This document shows positions 40,624 through 56,602 of a stretch of 64,000 nt of DNA, piece by piece. Source of the stretch: Thaumasiovibrio subtropicus (lineage in GTDB: Bacteria; Pseudomonadota; Gammaproteobacteria; Enterobacterales; Vibrionaceae); assembly GCF_019703835.1 (NCBI RefSeq), contig NZ_AP023054.1, forward strand, positions 992,001-1,056,000, written 5' to 3'. The first letter of the stretch is position 1, and every line of letters begins with the position of its first letter. A model generated the notes under the pieces. That model searched no databases, had not been told where the DNA came from, and saw only the letters and a program-made list of their open reading frames with translations. The translations under genes were made by a program, and so were the position numbers.

Positions 40624-40700
40624 GCGCCCTTAGCTCAGTTGGATAGAGCACGTGCCTTCTAAGCATGTGGTCACAGGTTCGAATCCTGTAGGGCGTGCCA
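40624..40700 (+). tRNA. tRNA-Arg (anticodon TCT)
   Basis: 77 nt with encoded CCA. The acceptor stem GCGCCCT / AGGGCGT includes one G-T pair. The anticodon stem CGTGC / GCATG encloses the loop CTTCTAA, giving TCT. The T-arm has GGTTCGAATCC. It has its own promoter and terminator. tRNA-Arg genes are common phage and island integration sites, but no integrase lies beside this one. Confidence 0.97.
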
Positions 40701-45816: not shown

Positions 45817-48189
45817 ATGAACTTGGAGCGTTCAGAACGCCTAGAGATCCCGGTTCTGCCACTGCGAGATGTGGTGGTGTACCCGCATATGGTTATTCCT
45901 TTGTTTGTTGGCCGTGATAAGTCTATCCGCTGTCTAGAAACAGCAATGGATAACAACAAGCAAGTGTTGTTGGTTGCGCAAAAAGACGCAGCAACTGAAG
46001 ATCCTGCCCTAGAAGATTTGTACGACGTCGGTACAGTGGCCACTATCCTTCAACTTTTAAAGCTACCAGATGGTACGGTAAAAGTGCTCGTCGAAGGTCA
46101 GCAGCGTGCAAAAGTTGAAGAGCTCTATGAAGATGAGTTTTTCCGCGCTGAGGCACAATTTCTTGTCACGCCTGAAATGGATGAGCGTGAGCAAGAAGTC
46201 TTGGTTCGCACAGCCATCAATCAATTCGAAGGTTTTATCAAGCTCAACAAGAAGATCCCACCTGAAGTATTAACATCACTTTCTGGGATTGAGGAAGCAG
46301 CGCGTTTAGCTGATACGATTGCGGCGCACATGCCTTTGAAGCTGTCTGATAAACAACAAGTTCTTGAAATTGTAGATATTGTTGAACGTCTAGAGTTTTT
46401 GATGGCGATGATGGAGTCGGAAATTGACCTACTGCAGGTTGAGAAACGTATCCGTGGTCGTGTTAAAAAGCAGATGGAGAAGAGCCAGCGCGAGTACTAC
46501 CTCAATGAGCAAATGAAAGCGATCCAGAAAGAGCTGGGTGAGCTTGATGATGCGCCGGACGAGTTTGAGTCTCTGAAACAGAAAATCGAAGAAGCCAAAA
46601 TGCCGGCCGAAGCGAAAGAGAAAACAGAGCAAGAACTTCAGAAACTGAAAATGATGTCGCCAATGTCGGCAGAAGCCACTGTCGTTCGTAGCTATATCGA
46701 TTGGATGTTAAGTGTACCGTGGAACAAGCGTTCTAAGGTGAAGAAGAATCTAGCGAAAGCCGAAGAGATCCTGAATGCTGACCACTACGGTCTAGAGCGT
46801 GTTAAAGAGCGTATTCTTGAGTATCTCGCGGTACAGAATCGCATTAATAAGCTGAAAGGCCCGATTCTTTGTCTTGTTGGACCTCCGGGTGTGGGTAAAA
46901 CCTCGCTAGGCCAGTCTATCGCTAAGGCGACGGGTAGAAAGTATACGCGTATGGCACTAGGTGGCGTACGTGATGAAGCTGAAATTCGCGGTCACCGTCG
47001 CACTTACATCGGTTCTCTTCCGGGTAAGCTCATTCAGAAGATGGCAAAAGTCGAAGTGAAAAACCCGCTCTTCTTGCTCGATGAAATCGATAAGATGTCT
47101 TCTGATATGCGCGGCGATCCTGCATCGGCTCTCCTTGAGGTGCTTGATCCAGAGCAAAACAACGCGTTTAACGATCACTACCTCGAAGTCGATTACGATC
47201 TTTCTGACGTGATGTTTGTTGCGACATCAAACTCAATGAATATCCCGGGTCCACTACTGGATCGTATGGAAGTGATTCGCTTATCGGGTTACACCGAAGA
47301 CGAGAAGCTGAACATTGCCAAACGTCACTTGGTTGAGAAGCAGATCCAGCGTAATGGGTTAAAGGCGCATGAAATTGCGATCGAAGACAGCGCACTGATT
47401 GGCATCATTCGTTATTACACCCGTGAAGCTGGTGTTCGTAGCCTAGAGCGTGAGATCTCTAAATTGTGTCGTAAAGCAGTTAAAGAGATTCTTCTCAATA
47501 AAGACACCAAGACTGTCACAATCACACAGGATAATCTTAAAGATTACCTTGGCGTGCAGCGCTTCGATTACGGTAAAGCGGAAGATAACAACCGTATTGG
47601 TCAAGTTATCGGCCTTGCGTGGACAGAAGTGGGTGGTGACTTGTTGACGATCGAAACTGAGGCAATGCCAGGTAAAGGTAAGCTTACCTATACTGGTTCA
47701 CTCGGTGATGTGATGCAGGAGTCGATCCAAGCGGCGATGACAGTCGTGCGAACACGCGCAGAGAAATTAGGTATTAATCCAGATTTCTATGAAAAGCGTG
47801 ATATCCACGTGCATGTTCCTGAAGGTGCGACACCAAAAGACGGCCCGAGTGCTGGTATCGCGATGTGTACCGCGTTAGTGTCTAGTTTGACCGGAAACCC
47901 AGTGAAATCTGACGTTGCTATGACAGGTGAAATCACACTACGTGGTGAAGTATTACCTATCGGTGGCTTGAAAGAGAAGCTCTTGGCTGCTCACCGTGGT
48001 GGAATCAAAACGGTAGTGATACCAAAAGAGAACGAGCGTGATCTGGAAGAGATTCCTGATAACGTGAAAGCGGATCTCGCTATCCACCCAGTCCGCTGGA
48101 TTGACGATGTGCTGCAACTCGCATTACAGAACAATCCTACCGGTATCGAGCTGGTGAAGGCTGAAAACAGTGATTTGAAGCAAAGTTAA
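45817..48189 (+). CDS. lon: ATP-dependent protease Lon
   Basis: 790 aa (E. coli 784). N-domain (about 1-300) for substrate recognition, AAA+ domain with Walker A GPPGVGKTS and Walker B LFLLDEIDK, and the C-terminal protease domain with catalytic Ser in PKDGPSAGIAM (near 680) and Lys about 43 residues later (GGLKEKLLAAHRGG). Expression is predicted to be heat-inducible. Confidence 0.98.
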   Translation: MNLERSERLEIPVLPLRDVVVYPHMVIPLFVGRDKSIRCLETAMDNNKQVLLVAQKDAATEDPALEDLYDVGTVATILQLLKLPDGTVKVLVEGQQRAKVEELYEDEFFRAEAQFLVTPEMDEREQEVLVRTAINQFEGFIKLNKKIPPEVLTSLSGIEEAARLADTIAAHMPLKLSDKQQVLEIVDIVERLEFLMAMMESEIDLLQVEKRIRGRVKKQMEKSQREYYLNEQMKAIQKELGELDDAPDEFESLKQKIEEAKMPAEAKEKTEQELQKLKMMSPMSAEATVVRSYIDWMLSVPWNKRSKVKKNLAKAEEILNADHYGLERVKERILEYLAVQNRINKLKGPILCLVGPPGVGKTSLGQSIAKATGRKYTRMALGGVRDEAEIRGHRRTYIGSLPGKLIQKMAKVEVKNPLFLLDEIDKMSSDMRGDPASALLEVLDPEQNNAFNDHYLEVDYDLSDVMFVATSNSMNIPGPLLDRMEVIRLSGYTEDEKLNIAKRHLVEKQIQRNGLKAHEIAIEDSALIGIIRYYTREAGVRSLEREISKLCRKAVKEILLNKDTKTVTITQDNLKDYLGVQRFDYGKAEDNNRIGQVIGLAWTEVGGDLLTIETEAMPGKGKLTYTGSLGDVMQESIQAAMTVVRTRAEKLGINPDFYEKRDIHVHVPEGATPKDGPSAGIAMCTALVSSLTGNPVKSDVAMTGEITLRGEVLPIGGLKEKLLAAHRGGIKTVVIPKENERDLEEIPDNVKADLAIHPVRWIDDVLQLALQNNPTGIELVKAENSDLKQS

Positions 48190-48195
48190 CGAATC

Positions 48196-48237
48196 AAAAA
48201 ACGCTGATAGTGATAAAAGTCTTGTCAGCGTTTTTTT
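48196..48237 (+). terminator. intrinsic terminator of lon
   Basis: AAAACGCTGA (48198-48207) / TCAGCGTTTT (48225-48234), 17-nt loop, then T-run. Confidence 0.8.
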
Positions 48238-48357
48238 GTGTCGCTATAAGGTATTGACGCTCTTTTTTCTTCAGCGCACGTTAGGATAACAAGTCGCTGA
48301 AGGGTTTAAATCATTTTGCCACTGCCAATAGTGGAAAGGTTCATAAGGGGATAAATC

Positions 48358-48630
48358 GTGAACAAAAGTCAACTAGTCGATAAAATCGCAGATAATGCAG
48401 AACTGTCAAAAGCGTCAGCTGGACGTGCATTGGATGCCTTTATTGAAGCTGTATCTGAAAGCCTAAAAGACGGTGATGCTGTGTCTTTAGTTGGTTTCGG
48501 TACTTTCTCTGTTCGTGAGCGTGCTGCACGTACTGGTCGTAACCCACAAACGGGTAAAGAGATCCAGATCGCTGCGGCTAAAGTTCCAGGTTTCAAACCA
48601 GGTAAAGCGCTGAAAGACTCAGTAAACTAA
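48358..48630 (+). CDS. hupB: DNA-binding protein HU-beta
   Basis: 90 aa nucleoid protein. The N-terminus [20 protein letters not shown] and the beta-arm [20 protein letters not shown] with its conserved Pro are diagnostic. It starts with GTG, preceded by AAGGGG, as fits the E. coli N-terminus. It follows lon as in many gammaproteobacteria. Confidence 0.98.
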
Positions 48631-48708
48631 TCTGGGCTACCGTGTTCGTCACTGTCAGTGTAAACTGCACTATAGTTGGAACGTTCACGATGTAGAACGG
48701 TCTATGTT

Positions 48709-48735
48709 AAGCGCATCGCGGGATGCGCTTTTTGT
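48709..48735 (+). terminator. intrinsic terminator of hupB
   Basis: AAGCGCATC (48709-48717), 4-nt loop, GATGCGCTT (48722-48730), then T-run. Confidence 0.88.
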
Positions 48736-48751
48736 TTATTTGTACCACTGT

Positions 48752-48846
48752 GTTATTTTTCGCCAGCTTTGCTGCCTGAGGCAGCGATTTGCTGATAATA
48801 GTTCCAACCTCAACGGCGATAGCCAGCTGGGTTGACGAAAAATAAC
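48752..48846. other. 95-nt structured element with 11-bp terminal inverted repeats before ppiD
   Basis: GTTATTTTTCG (48752-48762) and CGAAAAATAAC (48836-48846) are perfect inverted repeats. Just inside, CCAGC (48763-48767) pairs with GCTGG (48826-48830). A separate internal hairpin GCTGCC-TGA-GGCAGC spans 48771-48785. It may be a ppiD leader structure or a small palindromic repeat. No other copy was spotted in the window. Confidence 0.5.
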
Positions 48847-48874
48847 CAGAATTTCGCTTGGGATACGTCAAACT

Positions 48875-50722
48875 ATGATGGAACGGCTGCGTGAAGGCGC
48901 TAACAGCCTTGTCGTTAAAATTATTTTAAGTCTTATTATTCTCTCTTTCGTTTTCGCTGGCGTTGGCAGCTACCTTGCAGGTGGTGGGCAAATGGTTGCG
49001 GCGACCGTAAATGGTGAAGAGATTGATGTTCGTGAATTTGAACAACAGGTTCAACAAGAACGAAACCGTATGCAGCAGCAAGGCGGTGAGCAGTTCTTGA
49101 ATTTGATGGGTGACCCTGCTTATGTGGCTCAGTTCCGTCAAATGATCCTGAATCAAATGATCAACGATGTCCTGATTCAGCAACATGCTGATCAGCTCGG
49201 GTTACGTGTCAGTGATGCGCAAGTGCGTCAGGAAATCTTTGCCATCCCAGCTTTTCAGGTGGATGGCCGTTTTGACAATGACCTCTACAACACCACGTTG
49301 CGCCGTATGGGTCTAACGCCAGATGGTTTTGCTGAACGTATGCGCTCTGATATGCGTCGTCAGCAGCTACTCGCGGCATTGGCGGGTAGTGAGTTTACAC
49401 TGGATTCTGAGCTAGCAGGTGTTAGCGCGTTAGAAAGCCAAACACGTATGGTTCGCACAGTGACTTTGTCACTGGATGATATCGCGAGTGATGTGACGGT
49501 TGAGCAGAGTGAAGTACAAGCGTACTACGATATGAATTCAACACTCTTCACACGTCCTGACCAAGTTAAAGCGAGCTATATTGAGTTGTCTGCCGCGTTG
49601 CTTGCTGATCAATTAGAAGTAAGCGCTGAAGATGTGCAGGCATACTATGATGCAAACATCGCACGTTACAGTTCAACGGAAAAACGCCGTGTCAGCCATA
49701 TCCTTATTGAAGGTGATAGCAGTGAAGCGCAAGCACAAGCTGTGCTTGATCGCTTGAATGCTGGCGAAGCCTTTGCGGATTTAGCCAAAGCGCTTTCTGC
49801 AGATACTTTCAGTGGCGAGAATGGCGGCGATCTTGACTGGATCGAGAAAGGCGCGATGGATCCTGCTTTCGAAGATGCCGCGTTTGCACTCGCGAGTGTT
49901 GGCGATGTGTCTGAGGTCGTGCAGTCTGATTTTGGCTTCCATATCATTAAACTGACTGACCTTGATGGTGCCGTCGCGACGCCATTAGCCGAGGTAGAAG
50001 CGCAGATCCGTACGACGCTGCAACAAGACCTAGCGGTTAATTCATTCTTCGAGTTGAAAGATACCCTAGCGGATGTGGCGTTTGAGAAGTCAGATAATCT
50101 TGATGATGCTGCGGAAGCGACAGGGACGACCGTTCAGACAACCGACTTCATTTCAGAGACAGACGCGCCGGGCGTATTGGCGGATCCGCGTGTGATTCAA
50201 GCGCTGTTTAGCCAAGACGTGCGTGAAGATGGTTTCAACTCAGAGGTGATTGAGCTAGATAGCGAACGTGCCATTGTTGTGCGTGTTGATGACTTCCGTT
50301 ATGAAGAAGTCTTGCCTTTCGAAGACGTAGAAGCTGACGTTCTTGAAACGCTGACGCAGCAGAAAGCACAAGAAGAAGCGTCTCGTTTAGCCGAAGAGAT
50401 GCTAGCAGCATTAGAGGCTGGCGAAACCGTTGATGCTGAGTTCGGTGACGCTGAAGCCTTTACTCGTCGAGGCCCGAACTGGGTCGTCGCAAACGCTGTG
50501 TTTGGTTTGCCTAAGCCAACAGAAGGCCCAGTGTACGGTTCTGCAACTGGGTTTGGCGGTGATGTCATCGTATTCTCTGTCGAAAGCGTTCAAGAAGGTC
50601 AAGTGGCTGATGATTTACGTCCATTTGGTCAGCAAATGCTGCAAGGCTTGAGTCAGCAAAGCCTTGAAAGTGTGATGGACTCACTACTATCAAACGCAAA
50701 AGTGACGTCCAACGTTAACTAA
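48875..50722 (+). CDS. ppiD: periplasmic folding chaperone PpiD (SurA-like peptidyl-prolyl isomerase)
   Basis: 615 aa. It is anchored in the inner membrane by one N-terminal helix (about 16-34, IILSLIILSFVFAGVGSYL) and faces the periplasm. SurA_N-type helical region about 40-160; parvulin domain about 266-355 (RRVSHILIEGDSSEAQ, GGDLDWIEKGAMDPAFEDA); then a second degenerate repeat. The start could be either of two adjacent ATG codons. Family knowledge: it works at the Sec translocon on emerging proteins. Confidence 0.95.
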   Translation: MMERLREGANSLVVKIILSLIILSFVFAGVGSYLAGGGQMVAATVNGEEIDVREFEQQVQQERNRMQQQGGEQFLNLMGDPAYVAQFRQMILNQMINDVLIQQHADQLGLRVSDAQVRQEIFAIPAFQVDGRFDNDLYNTTLRRMGLTPDGFAERMRSDMRRQQLLAALAGSEFTLDSELAGVSALESQTRMVRTVTLSLDDIASDVTVEQSEVQAYYDMNSTLFTRPDQVKASYIELSAALLADQLEVSAEDVQAYYDANIARYSSTEKRRVSHILIEGDSSEAQAQAVLDRLNAGEAFADLAKALSADTFSGENGGDLDWIEKGAMDPAFEDAAFALASVGDVSEVVQSDFGFHIIKLTDLDGAVATPLAEVEAQIRTTLQQDLAVNSFFELKDTLADVAFEKSDNLDDAAEATGTTVQTTDFISETDAPGVLADPRVIQALFSQDVREDGFNSEVIELDSERAIVVRVDDFRYEEVLPFEDVEADVLETLTQQKAQEEASRLAEEMLAALEAGETVDAEFGDAEAFTRRGPNWVVANAVFGLPKPTEGPVYGSATGFGGDVIVFSVESVQEGQVADDLRPFGQQMLQGLSQQSLESVMDSLLSNAKVTSNVN

Positions 50723-56488: not shown

Positions 56489-56602
56489 GGAGGCCCCATT
56501 GGTCCTCCCGCAACACTAGTTCGTGAATCTGGTCAGGTCCGGAAGGAAGCAGCCACAGCGGATGATGTGTGTGCCGGGATGTGGCTGGTGGGGCTTCCAC
56601 CC
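56489..56602 (+). ncRNA. ffs: signal recognition particle 4.5S RNA
   Basis: About 114 nt. The conserved domain IV loop GGTCAGGTCCGGAAGGAAGC is at about 56530-56550, with the opposite strand GCCGGGATGTGGCTGG. The closing stem GGAGGCCCC (56489-56497) pairs with GGGGCTTCC (56590-56598). The length and order match E. coli 4.5S RNA, which binds Ffh. The exact 5' end depends on RNase P trimming. Confidence 0.95.

Follow-up and report, generated by a model that had tools for sequence, protein, structure and literature searches.

A genus-specific candidate leader of ppiD, predicted to fold as a three-way junction, in Thaumasiovibrio

Introduction

Does the inverted repeat between hupB and ppiD in Thaumasiovibrio subtropicus bound a small mobile element, or does it belong to an RNA leader of ppiD? 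Both explanations had been offered by a first-pass annotation of the locus. MITEs and ERIC/REP-type repeats carry terminal inverted repeats around a structure, and an ordinary-looking inverted repeat can be separated from a mobile element by its copy number, by its flanks and by the sharing of each of its arms. PpiD, a chaperone of the periplasm, is linked to the Sec channel, and a real regulatory leader would mean that a post-transcriptional layer had been added to ppiD control in one lineage.

Results

The hupB–ppiD spacer and the predicted fold of the element

The window is the whole stretch of T. subtropicus DNA that was analysed, 64,000 nt in length, and its genome is called G000 here. 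The open reading frames of the plus strand follow one another in the order 45817-48189, which we take to be lon, then hupB (48358-48630) and ppiD, the last two names being those given at the first reading of the sequence. The element occupies positions 48752-48846; as the first-pass annotation had placed it, it lies after the hupB terminator, starting 21 nt past the terminator stem and ending 28 bp ahead of the ppiD ATG. Position, between candidate promoters and the start codon, and coding strand both fit a 5'-UTR RNA. The features of the locus are collected in Table 1.

Table 1. Features of the hupB–ppiD spacer, in window coordinates.
Feature	Coordinates	Strand	Remarks
Sigma-E-like promoter candidate, GGAAC-N18-TCTATG	48678..48706	+	Same 18-nt spacing in G001
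Intrinsic terminator of hupB	48709..48736	+	Stem 48709-48730 plus T-rich tail; G001 shares 18/22 stem letters
24-nt block ending in the 5' arm	48739..48762	+	Common to some genomes of genus g7, same place past the terminator
P1, 5' arm (outer stem)	48752..48762	+	Repeat letters, predicted fold and G001 comparison
P2 stem-loop	48764..48794	+	CAG 48764-48766/CTG 48792-48794; GCTGCC 48771-48776/GGCAGC 48780-48785
P3 stem	48805..48834	+	CAACC 48805-48809/GGTTG 48830-48834; variable loop
P1, 3' arm (outer stem)	48836..48846	+	Repeat letters, predicted fold and G001 comparison
Shine-Dalgarno-like GGGA of ppiD	48860..48863	+	By eye; outside the element
ppiD, gene with the element in its leader	48875..50722	+	Name from the first reading

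The outer arms, GTTATTTTTCG and CGAAAAATAAC, are the perfect 11-bp terminal inverted repeats that had been described, with 73 nt between them. Such a repeat is unremarkable on its own and not beyond chance, as three perfect 11-bp inverted repeats with loops of 20-100 nt were counted in the window, against 1.6 expected from 60 simulations of a first-order Markov model. When short loops were included, 17 were seen compared to 2.1 expected, and judging by their letters these were mostly terminator-like hairpins.

The RNA of the whole element was predicted to fold at -38.6 kcal/mol, whereas 200 shuffles averaged -21.5 (z -5.46) and none of them was as stable; in the fold model this stability is exceptional and beyond chance. 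The minus strand folds too (z -6.24), because the element is a near-palindrome. The predicted fold is a three-way junction in which P1 encloses P2 and P3. Within P2, the separate 6-bp hairpin that had been annotated was recovered, although by repeat count it can also be drawn as 7 bp around a 1-nt loop, while the second inner stem, the 5-bp P3, had been overlooked. A proposed extension of the outer helix through CCAGC/GCTGG is absent from the predicted folds, where the 5' CAG(C) has (G)CTG at 48791-48794 as its partner and the 3' half of the proposed extension belongs to P3.

When Rfam 15 was searched, no family matched the element at gathering score, in agreement with the earlier remark that it resembled no known riboswitch or leader. 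The best matches below threshold (RefA9, TarB and sar) were far below their cut-offs. The element therefore resembles the riboswitch and leader families of Rfam 15 in its leader position and junction architecture, but not by any gathering-score match. Elsewhere in the window, the only gathering-score matches were a Bacterial small SRP RNA (56497-56593) and a tRNA (40624-40697).

A search of literature listings on ppiD leaders, ppiD promoters and hupB–ppiD spacers found nothing on the element. A predicted structured leader ahead of the same gene is described in another gammaproteobacterium, as the ppiD 5'-UTR of Shewanella ranks sixth among the regulatory RNAs predicted by RSSVM in the accessible part of that report (PMC2659441). 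That leader is reported to match Rfam Thr_leader, whereas no Rfam family matches here, and by this description the two are set apart.

Conservation in a second species of the genus

The comparison within the genus comprised two genomes, G000 and G001, so that all the covariation given below comes from two sequences. As a scale for the comparison, 234 of 526 PpiD residues are identical, as are 41/119 fourfold-degenerate sites in the compared part of ppiD, 25/45 in hupB and 51 of the 93 alignment columns ahead of the hupB terminator. The element was found at the same hupB–ppiD position in G001, with the same stems, and this copy was also predicted to fold more stably than any of 200 shuffles (z -3.24).

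On the predicted fold of the window, G001 has the same letter at 53 of 58 aligned paired positions compared to 15 of 27 unpaired ones (Fisher 2.8e-4), and 27 of the 32 pairs stay standard pairs. The five lost are three apical pairs of P3 and the pairs 48769-48787 and 48767-48791, which accompany nine P2 pairs (CAG/CTG and GCTGCC/GGCAGC) that are identical in both species. In contrast, the predicted fold of G001 itself, in which P3 is shifted and some of the variable junction becomes paired, gave no contrast between paired and unpaired letters (49/62 and 19/23 identical; Fisher 0.74). A 25-pair model gave 47/50 paired and 21/35 unpaired letters identical, but it was drawn with both sequences in view and with the unkept pairs omitted, a bias that flatters the contrast.

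Of the pairs in that model, the outermost one of P1 is compensated, from G-C to A-U in G001, the next changes from U-A to U-G by a single substitution, and the remaining 23 have the same letters in both species. The loop of P3 is 12 nt shorter in G001 and the apical GGC/GCC stem of the window is missing there, with the P3 stem itself intact; it is in the loops and the junction that the element varies. Most of the two arms is covered by identical runs of 24 (48753-48776) and 19 letters (48826-48844). However, in bins of 40 nt the element (31/40 and 26/40 identical) is no better conserved than its surroundings, and hupB and the two terminators, of lon and of hupB, contain identical runs of 23, 23, 21 and 20 letters too.

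This conservation is the main evidence for the element, and as far as two sequences can tell, the case for selection on its structure is good but not proven. The suggested cis-regulatory RNA of ppiD gained from the shared place and stems, from the compensated pair and from the excess of paired identity on the fold of the window, but not from the fold of G001, where that excess disappears.

In the same comparison, the lon terminator (48196-48241), which has a long loop, proved to be near-identical in G001 (39/40 in the bin 48201-48240, with runs of 23 and 21), whereas the spacer past it is less conserved (26/40 and 20/40). A conserved loop is unusual for a plain terminator.

Copy number and the age of the two arms

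The element was present once in G000 by DNA, pattern and covariance-model searches, and once in G001 by DNA and covariance-model searches. When two mismatches were allowed in the pattern search, 230 places were found compared to 186 for the reversed control; among the matches listed, only the element locus had, by eye, two arms facing each other at a short distance. A covariance model was run against 296 genomes of the family, with the stricter filters that apply to searches over more than 40 genomes and lose weak matches. Five genomes gave E <= 0.05, of which only G000 and G001 were convincing (2e-32 and 2e-26), and both strands of the near-palindromic element were matched in G000. The three matches at E 0.02-0.05 were as expected by chance, and those of G200 and G236 fell on contigs other than the ones with their ppiD match; weaker matches (E 0.2-9) in a separate covariance-model search were likewise at chance level for the number of genomes covered. 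The element is real and single-copy, and both species compared within the genus have kept it, with no convincing match elsewhere among the 296 family genomes.

As support for either of its explanations, the first-pass annotation had looked to compensatory changes in orthologs or to other copies in the genome. One compensatory pair in one ortholog was found, by which the proposal escaped narrowly, and no other copies in the genome.

To follow the arms outside the genus, 49 hupB–ppiD spacers were extracted from 48 genomes (L003 and L005 come from the same one), chosen among those with DNA matches, so that the sample leans to near relatives; L028, L034-L039 and L041 yielded no spacer. The 24-nt block that ends in the 5' arm was matched at 17-21 of its 24 letters in seven of the 46 spacers from outside the genus, all of them from genus g7, and at most one in 200 single-letter shuffles matched as well. 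The block sits 3 nt past the fifth T of the terminator in g7, compared to 5 nt in the window. For the 3' arm, the best match in the same seven spacers was 11/21, no better than in other spacers (10-14). As these seven spacers have the 5' arm without the 3' arm, the former appears to be older than the element, with the 3' arm a later addition that pairs with it. The older 5' arm counts against the insertion of a ready-made element, and it leaves room for a separate role of this arm, such as an extended -10 box.

These results bear directly on the possibility that the element is a miniature inverted-repeat transposable element, or a remnant of one. It resembles MITEs and ERIC/REP-type repeats in its perfect 11-bp terminal inverted repeats, which enclose an interior stem, and additional long stretches have entered this spacer in other genomes. 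However, multiple copies were absent in both genomes, the flanks (TACCACTGT on the left and CAGAATTTC on the right) have no target-site duplication, no match to the element was found in plasmid and phage collections, and none to its exact 23-nt pattern in viral contigs. Furthermore, the element holds the same place in two species with its interior stems conserved, and its 5' arm, which stands alone in several g7 genomes, appears to predate it. The MITE-like origin suggested by the earlier annotation is thus largely refuted, and we regard it as highly improbable.

Extra hairpin-forming, insertion-like stretches were seen by eye in the hupB–ppiD spacers L025, L026 and L033, each in a single genome.

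The ppiD leaders of other genera were also folded, with mixed results. Among 43 distinct ones, several of which are close relatives of one another, z ranged from +0.5 to -4.3 with a median of -1.6, and was -2 or lower in 15, and the consensus fold of seven g7 leaders had 0 of 12 pairs compensated. A structured ppiD leader throughout the family is suggested by these values, but is not claimed here. A g7 hairpin at this position whose letters change was seen by eye, and is noted as a lead only.

In a subgroup of g7 (L008-L014, L017-L019, L021-L023, L027 and L046-L048), the ppiD leader extends for 284-317 nt past the terminator. These long leaders are alike among its members, and some show more structure than their shuffles (z to -4.3). 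Rfam had no match for L009, L019 or L021, the three that were examined. A genome-contig collection scanned for PpiD yielded six distant relatives and no near ones.

A structured leader or a switch

Taken together, the element is probably a cis-acting, genus-specific structured 5'-UTR of the ppiD mRNA, a predicted three-way junction between the hupB terminator and the ribosome-binding site; we put the probability of this at roughly 0.57. The most likely mode of action would be that of a structured leader with an effect on message stability or as an insulator. As a rigid leader, the element would mainly shield the ppiD message from degradation and keep the terminator region away from the ribosome-binding site of ppiD, without masking that site. 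In the fold model, the access of the ribosome-binding site is predicted to be about the same with or without the upstream leader (0.47 with and 0.58 without, and 0.23 and 0.22, respectively).

5' stabiliser hairpins front mRNAs such as ompA. The element shares with this type a stable structure at the front of the message and a ribosome-binding site outside it, but differs in being a predicted three-way junction with an 11-bp outer stem. In E. coli, structure probing classed the 12-30 nt before the ppiD start as single-stranded, a ribosome docking site (PMC4619774, accessible part); the element ends just upstream of that distance, so it would leave such a docking site free. The ppiD mRNA is also counted among those degraded by MazF in the accessible part of a review (PMC8082313). 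A transcriptome of Photobacterium profundum includes, in the accessible part of the report, 992 transcripts with a 5'-UTR longer than 60 nt and only 10 known RNA elements among its 5'-UTRs, and neither 'hupB' nor 'peptidyl-prolyl' occurs in the main text of that paper (PMC3505737).

A stable three-way junction located in a leader could also be a switch or a protein-binding structure, in which P1, P2 and P3 sense envelope stress, a small molecule, an RNA-binding protein or an sRNA and alter ppiD expression accordingly. The gene is stress-controlled in E. coli, where the control described, in the accessible part of the report, is transcriptional and exerted by sigma-32 and Cpx (PMC2956729). In both species, moreover, TTGACG (48832-48837) is complementary to CGTCAA (48865-48870), a pairing that would compete with P1 and P3. 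However, for the full leader this competing hairpin was predicted with a probability of 0 in either species, and neither a terminator-like structure nor a masked ribosome-binding site was seen inside the element. In addition, a ligand site would be expected in the junction and loops, but it is these that vary, unlike their counterparts in a typical ligand-binding riboswitch; no conserved loop or junction letters of the kind expected of a ligand site were found between G000 and G001, and this variability argues against a small-molecule aptamer. A ligand- or protein-controlled switch is therefore possible, but we consider it unlikely.

Two further candidates were rejected. The TTGACG/CGTCAA hairpin, which would enclose the ribosome-binding site, was predicted in subsequences of G000 (up to 0.86) but at less than 0.01 in those of G001. 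A short leader peptide spanning the 5' arm was, by eye, without a ribosome-binding site, and its endings differ between the species.

Promoters ahead of ppiD

As a structured leader, the element would be transcribed within the ppiD message, and the promoter would either overlap the hupB terminator or lie upstream of it. A candidate is GGAAC-N18-TCTATG, similar to the sigma-E consensus, whose boxes are exactly 18 nt apart in both species despite several indels across the stretch. The GGAAC/TCTATG spacing pattern was found at six places in G000 and three in G001, with 0 and 1 in the respective controls. A strict sigma-E consensus pattern had five places compared to 13 in the control in G000, and six compared to two in G001, so that an excess, and a small one, was seen in G001 but not in G000; an orthologous pair among these strict matches adjoins, by eye, a porin-like gene. 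A sigma-E promoter for ppiD is suggested mainly by the spacing kept in two species and is taken as a lead only. Transcription from this candidate would start inside the terminator stem, so that the stem would become a 5'-terminal hairpin. A fuller scheme can be drawn, of a genus-specific leader with a sigma-E-type promoter overlapping the hupB terminator, the terminator hairpin as the 5' end of the message, and then a junction that tunes ppiD to envelope stress and was born when the older 5' segment gained a complementary 3' arm; as a whole it appears rather improbable.

The 5' arm could, instead, act mainly as DNA, providing an extended -10 box (TGnTATTTT, 48751-48759) for ppiD, in which case transcription would start inside the element and P1 would never form in RNA. 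In favour of such a box, the 24-nt block with this motif occurs in seven of 46 spacers from other genera, at a near-equal distance from the terminator and with the 3' arm missing. However, no good -35 box was seen by eye, the site is not among the predictions of a promoter scan (which requires both hexamers), the TG is absent from G001, and such a box explains neither the conservation of the 3' arm nor the compensation of the outer pair. This alternative to the structured leader is consequently a doubtful one.

Two other sites were discarded by eye: a promoter at the TTGACG of the 3' arm, which has no -10 at a fitting distance, and a CRP-like site in two g7 genomes, which is not kept in others. 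In eight spacers from genera g3, g13, g6 and g9 (L030-L033, L043, L044, L058 and L059), a TATAAT box was seen by eye about 18-25 nt ahead of the hupB terminator, a position that would suit a ppiD promoter firing shortly before that terminator.
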